A DNA stretch of 64,000 nt from Fluviicola taffensis DSM 16823. GTDB lineage: Bacteria > Bacteroidota > Bacteroidia > Flavobacteriales_D > Crocinitomicaceae. The first letter of the stretch is position 1. Each line of letters opens with the position of its first letter. The position numbers were made by a program, and so were the translations under genes. Shown here piece by piece: positions 35,143-45,976 of the stretch. The stretch spans positions 3,782,001 through 3,846,000 of the forward strand of contig NC_015321.1 in NCBI RefSeq assembly GCF_000194605.1, given 5' to 3'. The notes under the pieces were generated by a model. That model ran no database searches. It was not told where the DNA came from and worked only from the letters and a program-made list of their open reading frames with translations.

Positions 35143-36951
35143 TTACTCTCCGCCTTCCATTTTTTCTTTCAATGCAGCTAAAGCATCTAAGTCACCTAGA
35201 GTTGATTTCTCATTTCCTTGGTTGTTAGCTTTAACAGCTTGTGATGTAGAAGAACCAGCTCCACTTCCGCTAGTTGCACCTTTTTTACCAGCTGCAGGTT
35301 TTGCGGTAGTTTTTTCGTCTGTACCTTCTTCAAATGTACGAGTGTGAGAAACAACAATTTTCTTAGACTCTTTGTTGAATTCGATTACTTTGAAATCAAG
35401 TGTCTCTTCAACTTTGGCATTTGATCCGTCTTCTTTACGTAAGTGTTTAGAAGGACAAATTCCCTCAACACCGTAAGGAAGTGCTACGATACCAGCTTTA
35501 TCTTTTGTTTCGATAATAGTACCTTGGTGTACTGAACCTTCTCCGAAGATAGTTTCAAACACATCCCATGGATTTTCTTCCAATTGTTTGTGTCCTAAAG
35601 AAATACGACGATTTTCACGATCAATTTCCAATACAACTACTTCCATTTCGTCACCTACCTTACAGAATTCAGATGGGTGCTTGATTTTCTTTTGCCAAGA
35701 AAGATCAGAAATGTGAATCAATCCATCAACACCTTCTTCTAATTCTACGAATACACCGAAGTTGGTGAAGTTACGAACTTTAGCTTTGTGCTTAGTAGCA
35801 ACTGCATATTTAGCCTCGATTGCAGACCATGGATCTGGCATCAATTGTTTAATACCTAGAGACATTTTACGCTCTTCACGATCCAAAGTCAAGATAACAG
35901 CCTCAACTGTATCTCCAACTTGCATGAAGTCTTGAGCAGAACGTAAATGTTGAGACCAGCTCATTTCAGAAACGTGAATTAATCCTTCAACTCCTGCAGC
36001 GATTTCAACGAATGCACCGTAGTCAGCTAAAACAACAACTTTTCCAGAAACTTTATCACCAACAGCTAAGTTTGTGTCTAAAGCATCCCATGGATGTGGT
36101 TGTAATTGTTTTAAACCTAAAGCGATACGTTTTTTATCATCATCAAAGTCTAAGATAACAACGTTCAATTTTTGATCCAATTCAACGATTTCCTCTGGGT
36201 GGTTAACACGACCCCAAGATAAATCTGTAATGTGAATCAATCCATCTACACCACCTAAGTCGATAAACACACCATAAGAAGTAATGTTTTTCACAGTACC
36301 TTCTAATACTTGTCCTTTCTCTAGGCCAGAGATGATTTGTTTCTTTTGTTCTTCCAATTCTGCTTCGATCAACGCTTTGTGAGAAACAACAACGTTTCTA
36401 AACTCTTGATTAATCTTAACAACTTTGAATTCCATGTTTTTACCAACATAGATATCGTAGTCACGGATTGGTTTAACATCGATTTGAGAACCTGGCAAGA
36501 AAGCCTCAATTCCAAATACGTCAACAATTAAACCTCCTTTAGTACGACATTTTACGAAACCTGTGATAACCTCACCTGTACGCAATACGTCATTCACGCG
36601 AATCCATGCTTTGTGCATACGAGCCGTTCTGTGAGAGATAACCAATTGACCGCTTTTGTCTTCTTGGCATTCTACGAATACGTCTACTACATCACCAGCT
36701 TTTAATTCAGCATTGTAACGAAATTCTGAAGCAGCAACAACTCCTTCAGATTTGTAACCAACATTAATGATTACTTCTTTTTTGGAAACTGCTATAACAG
36801 TACCTTCAATAACTTCTTTCTCGTTAATTGAAGTTAGGGTTTTCTCATACGTGTCAGAAAGTTCTGAACGTTGAGCTAATGTGTACCCGTCTAACGCTAA
36901 TGCGTCCCAATCAAAATCCGCAGATCCCTGCGCGTTAATTTGTTTTGCCAT
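35143..36951 (-). CDS. rpsA: 30S ribosomal protein S1
   Basis: The 602-residue protein contains six S1 RNA-binding domains: about 45-112 (EGTVIAVSKKEVIINVGYKSEG), 130-195, 213-280 (GTVKNITSYGVFIDLGGVDGLIHITDLSW), 298-365, 385-452 and 470-535. Domains 3-5 show the best conserved DGLIH(I/V)S motif. The tail (540-602) is rich in K, G, S and T and ends in an acidic helix. S1 helps bring mRNA to the ribosome; with few Shine-Dalgarno sequences in Bacteroidota its role may be especially important. It is transcribed alone from a consensus promoter with a leader of about 97 bases. Confidence 0.95.
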   Translation of the reverse strand: MAKQINAQGSADFDWDALALDGYTLAQRSELSDTYEKTLTSINEKEVIEGTVIAVSKKEVIINVGYKSEGVVAASEFRYNAELKAGDVVDVFVECQEDKSGQLVISHRTARMHKAWIRVNDVLRTGEVITGFVKCRTKGGLIVDVFGIEAFLPGSQIDVKPIRDYDIYVGKNMEFKVVKINQEFRNVVVSHKALIEAELEEQKKQIISGLEKGQVLEGTVKNITSYGVFIDLGGVDGLIHITDLSWGRVNHPEEIVELDQKLNVVILDFDDDKKRIALGLKQLQPHPWDALDTNLAVGDKVSGKVVVLADYGAFVEIAAGVEGLIHVSEMSWSQHLRSAQDFMQVGDTVEAVILTLDREERKMSLGIKQLMPDPWSAIEAKYAVATKHKAKVRNFTNFGVFVELEEGVDGLIHISDLSWQKKIKHPSEFCKVGDEMEVVVLEIDRENRRISLGHKQLEENPWDVFETIFGEGSVHQGTIIETKDKAGIVALPYGVEGICPSKHLRKEDGSNAKVEETLDFKVIEFNKESKKIVVSHTRTFEEGTDEKTTAKPAAGKKGATSGSGAGSSTSQAVKANNQGNEKSTLGDLDALAALKEKMEGGE

Positions 36952-37721: not shown

Positions 37722-39299
37722 ATGAAAACGAAAATTCTACCAGCAAACCCGGACATGGGATGGGTCCGCTTTGCACTCTCCGTCATTCTCTTTTTATCTG
37801 TATCTTTTGCCTTTGCACAGCCAGGTAAAAGTGGGCCGGCTACAATTACGGCTCTTAATACTGTTGTGAATTGCTATAGTCCAGTTACCAATAACGTTGC
37901 TTCAGGTTCTTTGTCTGTTATTATAAATAACGCGGGAGGGAATAACTGTAATCTTGAATGTGGTGATTTGGTGATGATTTACCAAGCTCAGGGTGCTGAA
38001 ATTAATGCCGTAAATTCGGATGCTTATGGAACAATCAATGCTTATAACAACTCTGGATTATATGAATTCAACTATGTAGTTTCTTTAGCAGGTACGACAG
38101 TAACTGTTCAAAATCCATGGACAAATAATTACACTGCAGCAGGGCGTGTTCAGTTAATAAAAGTTCCTTCATATACAACACTTACTGTTAATGCTGGAGC
38201 GTCTATCGTTCCATTGCTATGGCAAGATGTCGCAGGAGGAAGGAAAGGAGGAGTTGTTGCAATTCATTCTTTTGGTACTGTTACTGTAAATGGAATGATT
38301 CAAGCAACCTCTTTTGGATTTAGACCAGGAGCAACAGAGCAAAATACAAGTGCAGCTGGCGGGGGAATTGTTACTGCTTTTGTATCAACAAATTCTAGTG
38401 ATGGTGCTGAAAAAGGAGAAAGTATTGCTGGTTTTGGTCCTGAGTATACTACTGGAGCATATAATCGTGGAGCACCTGCAAATGGTGGAGGTGGTGGAAA
38501 TGGTCACAATGCTGGCGGCGGTGGCGGTTCTAATGGAAATAGTGGAATTGCATGGAATGGTCAAGGTTCAATGTGTACGGCTTGCCCAGGAACAGCAGCT
38601 TGGTTATTAGATCCTTATGTGATTGCTAATGGAAATGTGTTAACTACTTCATCTGGAGGAGGACGCGGAGGATATTCTTATGGCTCAAGTAATCAAAACG
38701 CACTTGCTGTTGCACCTAGTAACACGAATTGGGGAGGTGATAACAGAGACCCTAATGGTGGTTGGGGAGGTAGACCTTTAACAATTGCACCTCAAACTCG
38801 GATCTTTTTCGGCGGCGGCGGGGGAGCAGGTGATTCAAATAATGGTTCGAATGCACCAGGTGGAAGTGGTGGTGGAATTGTTTATATTATTGCTCCAAAC
38901 ATAGCTGGTTCAGGAAGTATTCGCTCTCAGGGAGGAGCAGCTATCAATCAAATTGCAAATAATAATGGTTCAGCGAACGATGCTCCTGCTGGTGGTGGTG
39001 GTGGTGGAACAGTTATCATTAAAGGAACTGTTGCGAATTCATTGTTGTTAGATGCTGTTGGTGGAAAAGGTGGCGATCAAGGTCCGTTAGGTACAGAAAG
39101 TGAAGGTCCTGGCGGTGGCGGTGGCGGTGGCTTTATTGCGATTACTGCTGGAGCTCCAACTCAGAATATTGCTGGAGGACAAAGTGGTATGACATTGTCG
39201 TCTTCATTAACTGAATTTGTTGAGAATGGTGCAACGAATGGGGGGGGCTGGACAAACAACAACTGTTCCAAGTACATTCATAAACTATATTGCCCCTGA
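37722..39299 (+). CDS. N-terminal part of a frameshifted SprB-like adhesin (glycine-rich stalk)
   Basis: The 525-residue frame starts with a signal peptide whose hydrophobic core is about residues 15-32 (ending FAFAQ). Residues 35-200 form a beta-rich domain, and 230-490 are very glycine-rich (GGGGNGHNAGGGGGSNG, GGGGGAGDSNNGSN), as in some secreted Bacteroidota proteins. After residue 505 the frame passes through eight consecutive G (39240-39247) and then reads 20 unrelated residues to a stop at 39299. The next frame continues smoothly from the same point. The intact protein probably continues into the SprB-repeat frame downstream. Confidence 0.85.
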   Translation: MKTKILPANPDMGWVRFALSVILFLSVSFAFAQPGKSGPATITALNTVVNCYSPVTNNVASGSLSVIINNAGGNNCNLECGDLVMIYQAQGAEINAVNSDAYGTINAYNNSGLYEFNYVVSLAGTTVTVQNPWTNNYTAAGRVQLIKVPSYTTLTVNAGASIVPLLWQDVAGGRKGGVVAIHSFGTVTVNGMIQATSFGFRPGATEQNTSAAGGGIVTAFVSTNSSDGAEKGESIAGFGPEYTTGAYNRGAPANGGGGGNGHNAGGGGGSNGNSGIAWNGQGSMCTACPGTAAWLLDPYVIANGNVLTTSSGGGRGGYSYGSSNQNALAVAPSNTNWGGDNRDPNGGWGGRPLTIAPQTRIFFGGGGGAGDSNNGSNAPGGSGGGIVYIIAPNIAGSGSIRSQGGAAINQIANNNGSANDAPAGGGGGGTVIIKGTVANSLLLDAVGGKGGDQGPLGTESEGPGGGGGGGFIAITAGAPTQNIAGGQSGMTLSSSLTEFVENGATNGGGWTNNNCSKYIHKLYCP

Positions 39300-42200
39300 A
39301 ATTACAGCTACTGTCAATACACCTGTTTGTGTTGGAAATGCGATTAATTTCACAACGGTAGTTTCCATTCCTGGTGGAACTTACGCTTGGACAGGTCCAA
39401 ATAGTTATACATCAACGGCAGCAAATCCTACAATTGCTAGTGCTGCTTTAACTCATACAGGTAATTATAGAGTGATTTATACAACTCCTGGAGGATGTAA
39501 GGACACCTTCATCGTTGCTTTGGTGGTAAATCCGAATCCAGTCATCAGCTTAATTGGAACGAATTTATCTTGTGCAACTCCATGTAATGGAACCATTAAT
39601 GTCAATTTTACAACGAGTACAACTGCTCCATATACCTATGCTTGGAGTAATGGAGCATCTACTCCAAATCTTTCCGGATTGTGTGCAGGAAACTATTCAG
39701 TGACAGTTACGGACGCTAAAACTTGTACGGCAACAGCAAATACGACACTTACAGCTCCAGCTCCGCTTGTTGCAGCAATTGTCAAAACTAATGCAACCTG
39801 TAATAACGTTTGTAATGGAACAATTACAGTAAACGCATCTGGAGGAACGGCTGCTTATCAATACAGTTTAAATGGGGCTACAAATCAAGTGTCAAATAGT
39901 TATACTGCTTTATGTGATGGTGCTTACTCAGTAGTTGTAACAGATGCAAATAGCTGTACGGTTACTGTAAACTCAACTATTACTGAACCGACACCTCTTA
40001 ATTTAGCTTTGGTTTCAACAGTTCCTGCAACATGTGGGACTAGCAATGGTTCATTAACAGTGAGTGCTACTGGTGGTACAACTTCTTATACGTATACAGT
40101 GGGTGCCGTAACTCAAGCATCTGGCACATTTACAGGTTTAACTCCAGGGATACATAATGTAATTGTTACTGATGCAAATGGGTGTACCAAAAATTTATCA
40201 GTTACTATCGTAGCAGCTAATTCTCCTGTAGCTTCTATTTTGAGCCAACAGCCGGTTAGCTGTTTTGGAGGATTTAATGGCTCTGTTATTATAGGAGTCA
40301 CTGGAGGAACGGGGCCTTATACTTATTCATTGAACCCTGGACCAACGAATCAAGCATCCAATTTGTTTAGCAATTTACAGGCAGGATCTTATACCGCAAG
40401 AGTAACAGATATAAATGGGTGTTTTAATACTATTCCAGTTATAATTGTTCAACCAACACAACTTACTTATACAACAGCTTTAACAAGTACATCTTGTTTT
40501 GGAGTTTGTGATGGTCAAATTCAAATTACTCCCTCAGGCGGTACGGCTCCCTACGATTTTTCTCATGACAATGGTTTAACATTTACGCTGGCAAACCCAA
40601 TTTTGAATTTGTGCGCAGGTAATATCGATGTAGTTGTTCGTGATTCGAAAGGTTGTTTAACGAACTCTACGGTTGTAATAACTCAACCAACTGCTGTTTC
40701 AGCGACTTTTGTAAAAGTAGATCCAATTTGTAATGGTTCTTGTGATGGTTCAATTACGGTAACTGCTTCTGGTGGAACACCAACGTATTCTTACAGTTTA
40801 AATGGTGCTGCTTCACAAACCTCGAATGTAATTTTGAATGTATGCGCTGGAAATCAAGATGTCGAAATTACTGATGCTAATGGGTGTACATTTGAGGTGA
40901 ATCCAACATTGGTGAATCCTCCAGCAATTCAAATTGATACCCTTTCAATGACTGAATCAAATTGTGGATTCAACAACGGGGAATTAGTAGTAACAGCAAC
41001 AGGTCCTAATCCAGGATTTCAGTACTCTATCAATACGGATCCATTTCAACCTTCAGGTGTTTTTCCTAACTTATTCGCAGGTGCATATCTTGTTCATGTA
41101 ATGGATGATATTGGTTGTCAAGACAGTATTTACTTTGGTGTAAATGACGTTGAAATGGATGGTATTTTAATTTCTCAAGCAGATCCATTGTGCTTTGGTT
41201 CATTTGACGGAACTGTTGAGGTTACCAATGTCAATGGATTAGCTCCAATTTCTTTTGAACTAGATAACTCTGGAGCGCCTCAATCATCCGGTTTCTTTCC
41301 TAATTTGTCTGAAGGAAGTCACATTGTAACTATTTATGATGGCGGTTTCTGTGTATTTACGATTCCATTAAACTTAAGTCAGCCAGATCCAATTACATTT
41401 GATCAAATTGTTTCAAATGTGGCTTGTAATGGCGGATCTACAGGTGAAATAGAATTTACAAATGTTATTGGAGGAACGGGTGCTTATCAATTTAGTATTG
41501 ATGGAGGAAATGTATTTGATGTGCCAACAACGTATTCCAATTTACCAATTGGAGGATTTGATTTAGTAGTTATGGATGTCAACGGTTGTATGGAATTTGG
41601 ACATGTTGATATTGATCAATCTCTTCCAATTGAAATTTCAAACAATAAAGCAGATTTAACTTGTTTTCAAAATACCTCTGGATTTATTCAATTAGGAGCA
41701 ACGGGTGGAAACGGAGGTTTTCAATATTCGATTACTGGTGGAGCACCGTTCTCCGCATCAAGTTCATTCTTTGGTTTGTCAGCACAAGTTTATAATGTTG
41801 TTGTAACGGATCAAGAAGGATGTGTGCAGGATACCACTATTACATTGATTGAGCCAGCAGATTTAATTGCAAGTGCGGTTCCAACAGATGTGTTATGTAA
41901 TAATGCCTGTGATGGAATAATAATAGGAAATGCTTCTGGAGGAACAGTTTCTTACATGTACAGCGTCGATGGAGGTATTATTTTTAATGTTACAGGTACC
42001 TTCAATAACTTATGTTCAGGACCGTATGACTTAATTGTAACAGATATAAATGCATGTGCTGATACTGCGACTACAACAATTGGCTCACCAGCTGGTGTTA
42101 CTCTTAGTGTAACTTTAACTCCTTCCACATGTGGAAATGCAAATGGAGAGATTGATATGAGTTTAGCAGGTGGAACAATTCCTTACACTTATAGTATCGA

Positions 42201-44508
42201 TGCAGGAACTACTTTTGTCTCAACAAATGTATTCAATGGTCTTACAGCTAATGATTATGAACTGGAGGCAGAGGATGCGAATGGTTGTGGTGTAGATTCA
42301 ATTGTTACGATTTTAAATTTAGTTTCACCAGTAATTTCTGGAGTTTATGTAACAGAGCCAACTTGTTTCAGTATTTGTGATGGTATTGCACACGTAAGTG
42401 GTACAGGAGGAACTGGGGCCTTAACTTTTGAATTGAATGGGGTAACTCAAACAGATAGTATTTTCAATGGTCTTTGTGCTGGAACTTACGATGTGGTTAT
42501 ATCAGACGTTAATTCTTGTACGGATACATTGAATGTGATTATTAACCAGCCAGATACTTTAACATTTACGTCACTGGGAACAAATTTGACTTGTTTCCAA
42601 AATAGCTCTGGTTCCATAGATATTACTGCTATTGGAGGAACTGCTCCGTTTGAATATTCGTATGACAATGGAGGAACATTCGTGTCTTCAAATACACTTC
42701 AAGTTATTCCTGCAGGAACTTATAATTTGATTGTTCGTGACGATCATAATTGCCAATCTATAGGGAGTCAAGTATTAACTCAACCAGGATTATTAACTGC
42801 AACACTCACCATTACAGATCCAACTTGTTTTGGATTTAACAATGGTTCCGCTGTTGCAAATACAATTGGAGGAACGCTTGCTTATACCTATCATTGGAAT
42901 AATGTGGCAGGACCATCCAATACGAATTCAAATTTAACGAGTGGAAATTACACGCTTCAAATTACAGATGCAAATAACTGTGCGTTTGATACGACTTATG
43001 TAATTACTGACCCTGCTGAGTTTGTGATTGATTCAACGACACATGTAAATACTTCTTGTAATACTTTTTGTGATGGTTCAGCAACGATTTATGCGCCTGG
43101 AGGAGTTTCATTTAGCTTTGACAATGGAGCCACATTTAATCCAGCGAATACTTTAGGCGCACTTTGTGCGAATGCTTACCAAGTTCAGGCTACAAATGCT
43201 GCAGGATGTATTGCAATAAGCTCTGTGCAAATTGAACAACCACTTCCAGTTCAATTGTTTTCATCTCTTGATAGCTTGATGTGTACGGGTGATACCATTC
43301 CATTATTTGCAGTTGCATTTGGCGGAACAACACCTTACACCTACACTTGGAGTAATGGATTTGTTGGACAAACTCAAGACGTGATTCAATCGACACCTGC
43401 TATTTACACAGTTTCTGTGGCAGATGCGAATGGTTGTACAACTGCTGCACCAAACTCAGTAAATTTGACAATGCTTCCAATCTTCGCTTATTCGATCTTC
43501 GGAGATACATCCATTTGTAGCGGTAATCCAATAACCTTGTTGGTGAATGTTACAGATGGAGCTCCAACTTACACGTATCAATGGAGTACTTCAGTGAATG
43601 ATACTTTGAATAATGTTACTGTGAATCCAACAGCAGCAACTCTTTATAATGTGACAATTTCAGATGTTTGTGTGACAGTTGATACAAGTATTCAAGTGAA
43701 CTTGTACAGTGTTCCTACAGCTCAGTTTGTTACTTCTGATCAAGTTGGTTGTAGTCCATTAAATGTTACTTTTTCAAATGATTTAGCGATTACAAACCTT
43801 CAGAATTGTACGTGGACTTTTTCAGATGGTCAAACGTTTAATGGATGTGGAAGCATAAATGCAACATTTACAAACCCTGGTTGCTACGATGTTATTTTCA
43901 CTGGTAACACAACTGATGGTTGTCCTGTAACTGGAACATTTGCATCTGCAGTTTGTGTATATGATAATCCAGTTGCAAATTTTAACCATTCTCCAAGTCT
44001 ACCAACAGAATTGAATAATACGGTTCAGTTTACGAATTTGTCTTATGGTGAAACGACTTATAACTGGAACTTTGGAACTTCTTATGGAACTTCAACAATT
44101 GAGAATCCAACACATAGTTTCCATGGAGTAAGACCAGATGAGACGATCACGGTTTGTTTGACTGTTACCTCTGAGCATGGTTGTGCAGATTCAATCTGTA
44201 AAGCAATCAAGTTTTTCAGCGATTTCTTGGTTTGGGTTCCCAATACATTTACACCTGATGGAGATGAATTCAATAATGTATTCAAACCAATCTTTTCTAA
44301 AGATAGAGAGATAGACGATTACACATTAATGATCTTTAATCGTTGGGGAGAAGTGGTATTCGAATCGCACGATACTGAGTTTGGATGGGATGGAACTTAC
44401 CATGCGGAATATGTTCAAGACGGTGTTTATACCTGGATGATTGAAGTGAAAGATGGGTTGAAAAATAAAAGTGAGAAGTTCACAGGACACGTGAATAAAT
44501 TGCAATAG
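39217..44508 (+). CDS. C-terminal part of a frameshifted SprB-like adhesin with SprB repeats and gliding-motility domain
   Basis: This frame gives up to 1,763 residues, but the real coding part begins at the G8 run near 39240 (AGQTTTVPSTFINYIAPEITATVN). There is no signal peptide of its own, which supports the frameshift view. An Ig/PKD-like domain is followed by about sixteen or seventeen SprB-type repeats of 75-85 residues, each with a C(N/F)xxCxG(S/T)I-type opening and a VTDxNxC phrase. Then come PKD-like domains (AQFVTSDQVGCSPLNVTF; ANFNHSPSLPTE) and a gliding-motility C-terminal domain (FNRWGEVVFESHDTEFGWDG). Export by T9SS and a role in surface adhesion or gliding are inferred from SprB of Flavobacterium. 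Confidence 0.88.
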   Translation: MLRMVQRMGGAGQTTTVPSTFINYIAPEITATVNTPVCVGNAINFTTVVSIPGGTYAWTGPNSYTSTAANPTIASAALTHTGNYRVIYTTPGGCKDTFIVALVVNPNPVISLIGTNLSCATPCNGTINVNFTTSTTAPYTYAWSNGASTPNLSGLCAGNYSVTVTDAKTCTATANTTLTAPAPLVAAIVKTNATCNNVCNGTITVNASGGTAAYQYSLNGATNQVSNSYTALCDGAYSVVVTDANSCTVTVNSTITEPTPLNLALVSTVPATCGTSNGSLTVSATGGTTSYTYTVGAVTQASGTFTGLTPGIHNVIVTDANGCTKNLSVTIVAANSPVASILSQQPVSCFGGFNGSVIIGVTGGTGPYTYSLNPGPTNQASNLFSNLQAGSYTARVTDINGCFNTIPVIIVQPTQLTYTTALTSTSCFGVCDGQIQITPSGGTAPYDFSHDNGLTFTLANPILNLCAGNIDVVVRDSKGCLTNSTVVITQPTAVSATFVKVDPICNGSCDGSITVTASGGTPTYSYSLNGAASQTSNVILNVCAGNQDVEITDANGCTFEVNPTLVNPPAIQIDTLSMTESNCGFNNGELVVTATGPNPGFQYSINTDPFQPSGVFPNLFAGAYLVHVMDDIGCQDSIYFGVNDVEMDGILISQADPLCFGSFDGTVEVTNVNGLAPISFELDNSGAPQSSGFFPNLSEGSHIVTIYDGGFCVFTIPLNLSQPDPITFDQIVSNVACNGGSTGEIEFTNVIGGTGAYQFSIDGGNVFDVPTTYSNLPIGGFDLVVMDVNGCMEFGHVDIDQSLPIEISNNKADLTCFQNTSGFIQLGATGGNGGFQYSITGGAPFSASSSFFGLSAQVYNVVVTDQEGCVQDTTITLIEPADLIASAVPTDVLCNNACDGIIIGNASGGTVSYMYSVDGGIIFNVTGTFNNLCSGPYDLIVTDINACADTATTTIGSPAGVTLSVTLTPSTCGNANGEIDMSLAGGTIPYTYSIDAGTTFVSTNVFNGLTANDYELEAEDANGCGVDSIVTILNLVSPVISGVYVTEPTCFSICDGIAHVSGTGGTGALTFELNGVTQTDSIFNGLCAGTYDVVISDVNSCTDTLNVIINQPDTLTFTSLGTNLTCFQNSSGSIDITAIGGTAPFEYSYDNGGTFVSSNTLQVIPAGTYNLIVRDDHNCQSIGSQVLTQPGLLTATLTITDPTCFGFNNGSAVANTIGGTLAYTYHWNNVAGPSNTNSNLTSGNYTLQITDANNCAFDTTYVITDPAEFVIDSTTHVNTSCNTFCDGSATIYAPGGVSFSFDNGATFNPANTLGALCANAYQVQATNAAGCIAISSVQIEQPLPVQLFSSLDSLMCTGDTIPLFAVAFGGTTPYTYTWSNGFVGQTQDVIQSTPAIYTVSVADANGCTTAAPNSVNLTMLPIFAYSIFGDTSICSGNPITLLVNVTDGAPTYTYQWSTSVNDTLNNVTVNPTAATLYNVTISDVCVTVDTSIQVNLYSVPTAQFVTSDQVGCSPLNVTFSNDLAITNLQNCTWTFSDGQTFNGCGSINATFTNPGCYDVIFTGNTTDGCPVTGTFASAVCVYDNPVANFNHSPSLPTELNNTVQFTNLSYGETTYNWNFGTSYGTSTIENPTHSFHGVRPDETITVCLTVTSEHGCADSICKAIKFFSDFLVWVPNTFTPDGDEFNNVFKPIFSKDREIDDYTLMIFNRWGEVVFESHDTEFGWDGTYHAEYVQDGVYTWMIEVKDGLKNKSEKFTGHVNKLQ

Positions 44509-44623: not shown

Positions 44624-45976
44624 TCACTTGCCATTAGCTATAAATACCTTGTATTTCTCCAAAGCATGTTGACCTGAAATTACCGCACTGTTTTGAGTTT
44701 CCAAGCCTTCAGACCAACCTCCTGATAAATAAATCGAGGGAAATTGATTTACTTGTTGGTGAAGAATTGCGAGTTGGGCGATGAAATCAGTGGTGATGAG
44801 CGGATGCCAAAAACTCGTTACATGGAGTAGTTTTCCTGAGTTTTTTAATTGTTCAATTGCTTTCTGACTTGCCCAACTTTTATAGATTCCATCCAATCTT
44901 TCTGAAATCATACTGAGATTCATAGTACTTGAAACCAATTGATTGGAATTATTTGTGATGATATTCAAAAAAGCTGGTTTTTGGTTGTTTACAAAATTGG
45001 AATCTGTATGCAAAGCAATGCGAGCTTCAAAATAGGTGAGATGCTTCAATATTTCCTTGATTTCATTTAGATTTGGTTCCAATCTCATTATTTTAGCTGC
45101 TTGATCTGCATGTGTAGCAAAAAGTACAAAATCGACTAATTCCGTTTCTTCACTTCCATTGTTCAAATAAGTAACCAACCATTTGTCTTTAGATTGCATG
45201 ACTTTCACAACTGGAGAACTACATTTAATTGTGACTTGATTGGAACTTATTTTTTCTCCAACCTGTTGAATTAAAGTTCCCATTCCATCCGTCATTACTT
45301 TGAATTTATTGGAAGCTTTAGGTTTTCGGAAGGCAAAGAGCTTTACGATATTTACTGCGGAGGTTGTTTTAATCTCCAGAACAGTTGTTCCAAGTGAAGC
45401 TGCTAGAAAAGGATAGATGATTTCGTTTTTATAAGATTCGTCAAACTTCAATCCGTTTACCCATGTTTCGATATTGATTCCTTTCCAAGCTTCTGGATGT
45501 TTGTACATATCATAAGCTTCTTTATTGAACCGTTTTAATTTCAATAATTTTACCAATTTTTCACCTCGAAGCTTCATTCCTAATGGAGAAACCAATACTG
45601 GTTTTTGTTCTTTTTCCCGTTGGATAAGCAAACTGGCATCCAATGTTTCGCTTTTATATGGATTTTTACCCAATGTTTTTTCTAGAAATAAAATGTAATC
45701 ATCCCATGGGCCTTCTACAAAATATTGAGGGCCAGCGTCTACATTTACCAATTCTCCAGCTTTGTTTTTTACTAAAACAGTTTGTGCATTTCCTCCGAGT
45801 TTTGCTTCTTTTTCGAATAAAATAATCTTAGCTGTAGAATCAAATTGAGAAATGTAATACGCGCTGGAAACTCCAGCCATTCCACCACCAATAATTGCCA
45901 CTTTTTTCTGTGCTGAAGAATAAATGGAATGTGAAACAAGAATAAGGACTAGGAGTAGTTTCGAAGTAGAAGACAT
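44624..45976 (-). CDS. Exported FAD-dependent amine oxidase-like oxidoreductase
   Basis: The 450-residue protein begins with a Sec-type signal peptide (SKLLLVLILVSHSIYSSAQ) followed at once by the FAD-binding Rossmann motif KVAIIGGGMAGVSSAYYIS and the second motif FEKEAKLGGNAQTV. The C-terminal YLSGGWSEGLETQNSAVISGQ segment matches the conserved FAD-binding end of flavin amine oxidase/protoporphyrinogen oxidase-like proteins. The substrate is unknown. A non-twin-arginine signal on a flavoprotein is unusual: either the protein is exported unfolded and binds FAD outside, or the segment is a membrane anchor. The gene stands near other secreted-protein genes. Confidence 0.82.
   Translation of the reverse strand: MSSTSKLLLVLILVSHSIYSSAQKKVAIIGGGMAGVSSAYYISQFDSTAKIILFEKEAKLGGNAQTVLVKNKAGELVNVDAGPQYFVEGPWDDYILFLEKTLGKNPYKSETLDASLLIQREKEQKPVLVSPLGMKLRGEKLVKLLKLKRFNKEAYDMYKHPEAWKGINIETWVNGLKFDESYKNEIIYPFLAASLGTTVLEIKTTSAVNIVKLFAFRKPKASNKFKVMTDGMGTLIQQVGEKISSNQVTIKCSSPVVKVMQSKDKWLVTYLNNGSEETELVDFVLFATHADQAAKIMRLEPNLNEIKEILKHLTYFEARIALHTDSNFVNNQKPAFLNIITNNSNQLVSSTMNLSMISERLDGIYKSWASQKAIEQLKNSGKLLHVTSFWHPLITTDFIAQLAILHQQVNQFPSIYLSGGWSEGLETQNSAVISGQHALEKYKVFIANGK

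Follow-up and report, generated by a model that had tools for sequence, protein, structure and literature searches.

The adhesin locus and its two reading frames

The window, that is, the whole stretch of DNA analysed here, comprises 64 kb (positions 3782001-3846000) of the single contig, 4,633,577 bases long, of the Fluviicola taffensis type strain RW262T (DSM 16823, CP002542), a free-living freshwater bacterium that moves by gliding (PMC3236050). On its forward strand lies a giant adhesin gene that is divided between two reading frames. The upstream frame (37722..39299) is a glycine-rich open reading frame of 525 amino acids, with a start that resembles a signal peptide when judged by eye. 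The downstream frame (39217..44508) is an open reading frame of 1763 amino acids with a TTG start. The two overlap across a run of eight G residues (G8, 39240..39247), and a codon-usage profile trained on the other open reading frames of the window places the best coding frame differently to the left and to the right of this tract. The initial annotation had proposed that the two frames meet at G8, and both lines of evidence bear this out.

The recognizable domains of the protein match the downstream frame only. The SprB repeats (PF13573) occupy 16 stretches with an E-value of 7.4e-104, and the C-terminal CHU_C or type B T9SS sorting domain lies at 44236..44472, on residues 1674-1752 of the downstream frame, with PF13585 (E 3.2e-15) and TIGR04131 (42.9 bits, cut-off 35) both above cut-off. 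The upstream frame has no Pfam match. Residues 35-316 align with the NCBIfam equivalog domain AgmC_N (NF047640) at 183.6 bits, below the curated cut-off of 275. A search for relatives of known structure of the upstream part returned only two matches, with E-values of about 0.1 and to designed ankyrin proteins, which were disregarded. In the upstream frame, 506 codons precede the tract and residue 525 is the last; the present product would therefore stop 19 residues past the final codon ahead of the tract and would lack the SprB repeats and the sorting domain. The earlier figure of a stop 20 residues later was about right, and the predicted loss of repeats and T9SS domain agrees with the placement of both in the downstream frame.

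To the left, on the reverse strand, a gene for an S1-domain protein (35143..36951) is a conserved neighbour: the 7 genomes whose left flank is long enough have it in this position, within a common gene order PspC, PadR, S1, adhesin. The right neighbour, a gene for an NAD(P)-binding protein on the reverse strand (44624..45976), stands beside the orthologue in four genomes (G001, G003, G008, G013) and was not found in the sequence stretches examined for G007, G009, G006 and G002. No match in the 64-kb window came up to the threshold of its Rfam family.

The junction in related species

The comparison covered one genome per species. Some match to the upstream part is present in 37 of the 59 genomes searched, the F. 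taffensis genome counted. Within the genus, 8 of the 13 other genomes have an orthologue, at about 77-83% identity, and five give more distant matches or none. An extra contig scan returned three loci, two of which were already in the set (G001 and G008); the third, a weak match of 25%, was left out. The orthologue is complete as one frame of 2262-2265 codons in six genomes, and gaps or contig ends break those of G002 and G006 at points upstream of the junction.

In all eight same-genus orthologues the junction lies inside one open frame and is devoid of a G tract. The junction residues read Asn/Asp-Gly-Gly-Thr/Ser/Ala-Gly in a single frame in seven of them; the motif went unmatched in G001, for which a single frame of 2264 codons, the lack of a G run of at least six and the junction spacing served as stand-ins. 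In alignments with all loci on the same strand, the conserved flanks enclose 10 nt in F. taffensis. Of nine loci from relatives, seven have 9 nt there; these represent six genomes, since L041 and L051 belong to the same one. The alignments of the other two loci (L054 and L056) end before the junction. The initial annotation had noted that removal of one G joins the two frames, and the junction is one nucleotide longer here than in these relatives. On the sequences aligned, the G8 is confined to F. taffensis among the species compared, and a conserved contingency tract at this site was rejected, as none of the eight orthologues has it.

The same comparison bears on whether this is one gene at all. 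A reading in which two separate genes adjoin, the second beginning at TTG 39217, has the presence of a TTG-started open reading frame in its favour, but the single frame in the six genomes with a complete gene argues against it, as does the second open reading frame itself, which by eye carries no export signal. Two independent genes were rejected because the orthologues are one frame, and we give this reading next to no credence.

Constraint on the downstream part and the age of the break

The 1752 codons downstream of the tract contain zero stops. Between 1750 and 1752 of them pair with codons of seven of the eight orthologues, and 1710 pair with the gapped copy of G002. With the upstream and downstream parts treated separately in the codon comparison, the downstream part shows pN of 0.16-0.19 and pS of 0.66-0.76 against the relatives; among the relatives themselves, with the near-identical pair G009/G002 left aside, pN is about 0.09-0.18 and pS is 0.63-0.75. 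These quantities are quoted because synonymous sites were saturated in several pairs, for which dN/dS is incalculable. The F. taffensis copy falls in the upper part of the pN/pS range of the relatives, and, by a simple weighting of the zero stops, the unconstrained divergence since the break would be less than about 2%.

Zero stops, together with a pN/pS inside the range of intact copies, indicate a break that happened recently, can be reversed, or is an artefact of the assembly. An old or decayed pseudogene is ruled out, as there are no further stops or frame breaks and constraint is not relaxed. A constrained downstream part is also what constant expression would give, for instance if the gene were expressed despite the G8 because RNA polymerase slipped, or the ribosome shifted frame, at the tract. 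The relatives, however, encode the junction directly and without a tract, hence nothing points to evolved recoding, and we consider this explanation very improbable.

Homopolymeric tracts in the genome and the genus

The G8 had been described as rare in DNA of this kind, and this calls for qualification. When the window was shuffled 100 times with dinucleotides preserved, at least one G8 or C8 occurred in 27 of the shuffles (mean 0.40), so that chance can account for a single G8 in 64 kb. Counted over the whole F. taffensis genome, G/C tracts number 103 at a length of exactly 6, 10 at exactly 7 and 11 at 8 or more; the last class comprises five tracts of 8 nt, three of 9 nt, one of 10 nt and two of 11 nt. 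Base composition alone gives an expectation of about 228, 42 and 9.3. Short tracts are depleted against this expectation and long ones are not; the class of at least 8 is unusual only relative to the scarce tracts of exactly 7. The other 13 genomes of the genus, pooled, contain 1214 tracts of exactly 6, 167 of exactly 7 and 36 of at least 8, with the terminal G run of contig G006:C73, 48 nt long, excluded. The ratio of tracts of at least 8 to those of exactly 7 is therefore 11:10 in F. taffensis versus 36:167 in its relatives (p about 0.0008, for a comparison picked post hoc). Many G8 tracts in the relatives lie in frame within ordinary-looking open reading frames, and so G8 alone is no marker of a switch. 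In a survey of 99 prokaryotic genomes, poly(A)/poly(T) was overrepresented in genes and poly(G)/poly(C) was not (PMC2831843).

The coding frame changes at 2 of the 12 G/C tracts of at least 7 that have clear coding on both sides. As a control, 136 A/T tracts of at least 6 with coding on both sides were taken from 195 kb; seven were flagged, and all seven are consistent with neighbouring or overlapping open reading frames, one of them (L095:1266) being set aside on judgement because of a 74-nt overlap. A further 280 A/T and 14 G/C tracts (9 of the latter of at least 7), which lack clear coding on both sides, were left unclassed. The difference between G/C and A/T tracts has a p of about 0.006-0.007, and of only 0.08-0.10 when the A/T tracts are restricted to those of at least 7.

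Other genes with G/C tracts

Of the 11 F. taffensis tracts of at least 8, five are in frame inside open reading frames (a gene for an M61 peptidase, one for a patatin-like protein, and three tracts in two lipoprotein-like genes), three are out of frame (the adhesin G8 and those of two tail-fibre-like paralogues), and three lie in leaders or upstream. A C8 about 25 nt upstream of the open reading frame for a tRNA (guanine-1) methyltransferase (L050:3303-3310) is possibly a leader or promoter tract.

Apart from the adhesin gene, a G/C tract coincides with a frame offset in three genes of secreted-protein type. A second giant gene, on the reverse strand, changes frame at a G7 (L168:3994-4000, about 3712993-3712999 of the contig), and its downstream part has a beta-helix match. 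The three orthologues found in the genus (G003, G007, G008) read through and have no such tract. In the two tail-fibre-like paralogues (L044:3257-3283 and L047:5860-5888), a C8 and a C10 respectively stand a few codons past the ATG, and the coding frame does not match the frame of that ATG. Five such paralogues were found in the F. taffensis genome, and the other three are tractless, with an in-frame start and a segment that by eye resembles a signal peptide. A tail-fibre-like gene of G002 (L128) carries one extra A after its ATG in comparison with the counterpart in G009 (L127), which puts the ATG out of register; in the fragmented G002 assembly this is possibly an assembly error.

Four tandem lipoprotein-like paralogues of F. 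taffensis (L047:9818-12593) include two with a G11 at one site, one of which also has a G9 further on, and a gene of G002 has a G9 at the same site as these G11 tracts (L142:7159; L175:1620). A different, small lipoprotein-like gene carries a G tract at the same site in three species, with 10, 10 and 11 G in G013 (L130:4220), G005 (L146:2526) and G002 (L139:7098), the last copy adjoining an assembly gap; in the sibling genes of its arrays the tract motif was not seen. At L047, L130 and L139 the lipoprotein-like genes come after a tail-fibre-like gene and a large gene, the large gene of L047 and L130 having a T9SS signal, and no tail-fibre gene was found in the 5 kb examined of G005 (L146). With the G006:C73 run again excluded, 6 of the 7 tracts of at least 10 in the genus lie in tail-fibre-like or lipoprotein-like genes. 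A C9 of G013 (L133:2530-2538) stands about 50 nt upstream of a repeat-rich, secreted-looking open reading frame of at least 804 codons and may affect its promoter or leader.

Origin of the frame break

We give about an even chance to the G8 being a real and recent slippage allele in a newly formed tract of the adhesin gene, as carried by the sequenced culture of RW262T. The intact gene would encode a T9SS surface adhesin of roughly 2260 residues. On this branch, as the comparison indicates, base changes in a Gly-Gly coding stretch would have created a G run that has no counterpart in the relatives. A slip in this run would then have put the SprB repeats and the sorting domain out of frame; the offset itself is seen in the alignments, and slippage is its proposed cause. 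The T9SS uses a C-terminal signal for its cargo, and a truncated product devoid of that signal would be expected not to be displayed. As the rest of the gene is intact, it could be turned on again, and a second slip could bring this about. The locus would then be an accidental or incipient on/off switch. Of the idea in the initial annotation that this is a contingency locus, one part survives, namely that the G8 inside the open reading frame sets the frame of an otherwise intact downstream part. The other part, an established locus at this site, is not supported by the relatives: that annotation had held that relatives uniformly in frame would speak against it, and between species this is what was found.

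Several observations were counted in favour of a slippage allele: the frame changes exactly at the G8, the junction measures 10 rather than 9 nt, the orthologues read through it without a G tract and the downstream part has not decayed, and there is the higher ratio of tracts of at least 8 to those of exactly 7 than in the relatives, along with the three further out-of-frame genes and the switching reported for such tract lengths in Campylobacter (PMC6321876). The other long and partly out-of-frame G/C tracts of the genome make slippage more plausible than it would be from the adhesin locus alone. Counted against it were the lack of the tract in all eight orthologues, the finding that one G8 per 64 kb is within chance, the many in-frame G8 tracts in ordinary open reading frames of relatives, the fact that the breaks in the two giant genes could share a technical cause, and the finding that poly(G)/poly(C) is not overrepresented in prokaryotic genes (PMC2831843).

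A possible, rather than probable, explanation is an error in the consensus, in which the gene would be a single frame in the chromosome and the G count of the published assembly would be off by one. Sequencing by 454 is known to miscount homopolymers. In line with such an error, all eight orthologues are in frame at the junction, the downstream part is without decay, and the same assembly has a like break in another giant gene. The backbone of the assembly came from 454 reads (23x); however, Illumina reads (351x) were also obtained and base errors were corrected with them, to a stated error rate of less than 1 in 100,000 (PMC3236050). In Bifidobacterium breve, the RefSeq tract length differed from that of the population majority (PMC9187656), which also counts towards an error. 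On the other side stand the A/T control, in which every flagged tract fits open reading frame boundaries in contrast to the two G/C frame changes, and the five long G/C tracts of the same genome that are in frame.

The break may also be a one-off recent gene loss in the cultured strain, in the laboratory or in nature, with no switching involved. The restriction of the tract to F. taffensis fits such an event, as does redundancy. The genome gave 104 SprB-repeat matches and has 20 other open frames above cut-off (counted by distinct frame length, with 150 of 213 candidates scored), so that the loss of one adhesin may be tolerated. Nothing speaks directly against a one-off loss, but the additional out-of-frame G/C tracts favour a slippage-prone background, and we regard it as improbable.

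If the slippage allele is taken together with the other tracts, a broader and more doubtful proposal can be formulated. F. taffensis, and the genus more widely, may operate, for its secreted surface, a contingency system based on poly-G/C, in which new tracts that arise from base changes in glycine-coding stretches of giant T9SS adhesins would become on/off switches, alongside the shared G tracts of small lipoprotein-like genes and the C tracts at tail-fibre-like starts. The SprB-like gene described here would then have been caught in its off state.

Relation to known systems and significance

The nearest known arrangement is that of the sortase-dependent pilus genes of B. breve (bbr_0113a/b and bbr_1889a/b), in which a G tract acts as a switch and splits a surface gene into two open reading frames (PMC9187656). 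The likeness lies in a G run within a surface-protein gene that yields two open reading frames, joined depending on tract length. The B. breve tract, however, is G11/G12, recurs in several Bifidobacterium species and has measured length variation (PMC9187656), whereas that of F. taffensis is a G8 in one species. In Campylobacter, at least 7 G was taken as the cut-off for a tract and switching was reported at 8 or more (PMC6321876). The F. taffensis G8, also within an open reading frame, reaches this reported switching length. Campylobacter differs in having dozens of tracts, mostly G9 and G10 and many of them common to strains (PMC6321876), compared with 11 tracts of at least 8 in F. taffensis and an adhesin G8 that is absent in other species.

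In its giant size, its SprB repeats and its C-terminal T9SS domain, the encoded protein is like SprB, the gliding adhesin and T9SS cargo of Flavobacterium johnsoniae (PMC3796261). The likeness lies in the repeats and the sorting domain, and the upstream part matches AgmC_N below cut-off. The available text of PMC3796261 makes no mention of phase variation of SprB. Among the literature matches listed, as judged from title or start of abstract, none concerned phase variation of Fluviicola or SprB through homopolymers, nor homopolymer or poly-G phase variation in Bacteroidota or Flavobacteria.

If the extra base is an error, two giant surface-protein genes may need correcting in the published type-strain sequence. 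If it is real, the locus would show the birth of a tract, through ordinary substitutions in a Gly-Gly stretch followed by a slip. Variation of the surface by homopolymer slippage belongs, among the literature matches listed, mostly to host-associated bacteria; a real G8 allele would mean that a free-living gliding bacterium varies its surface in the same way.
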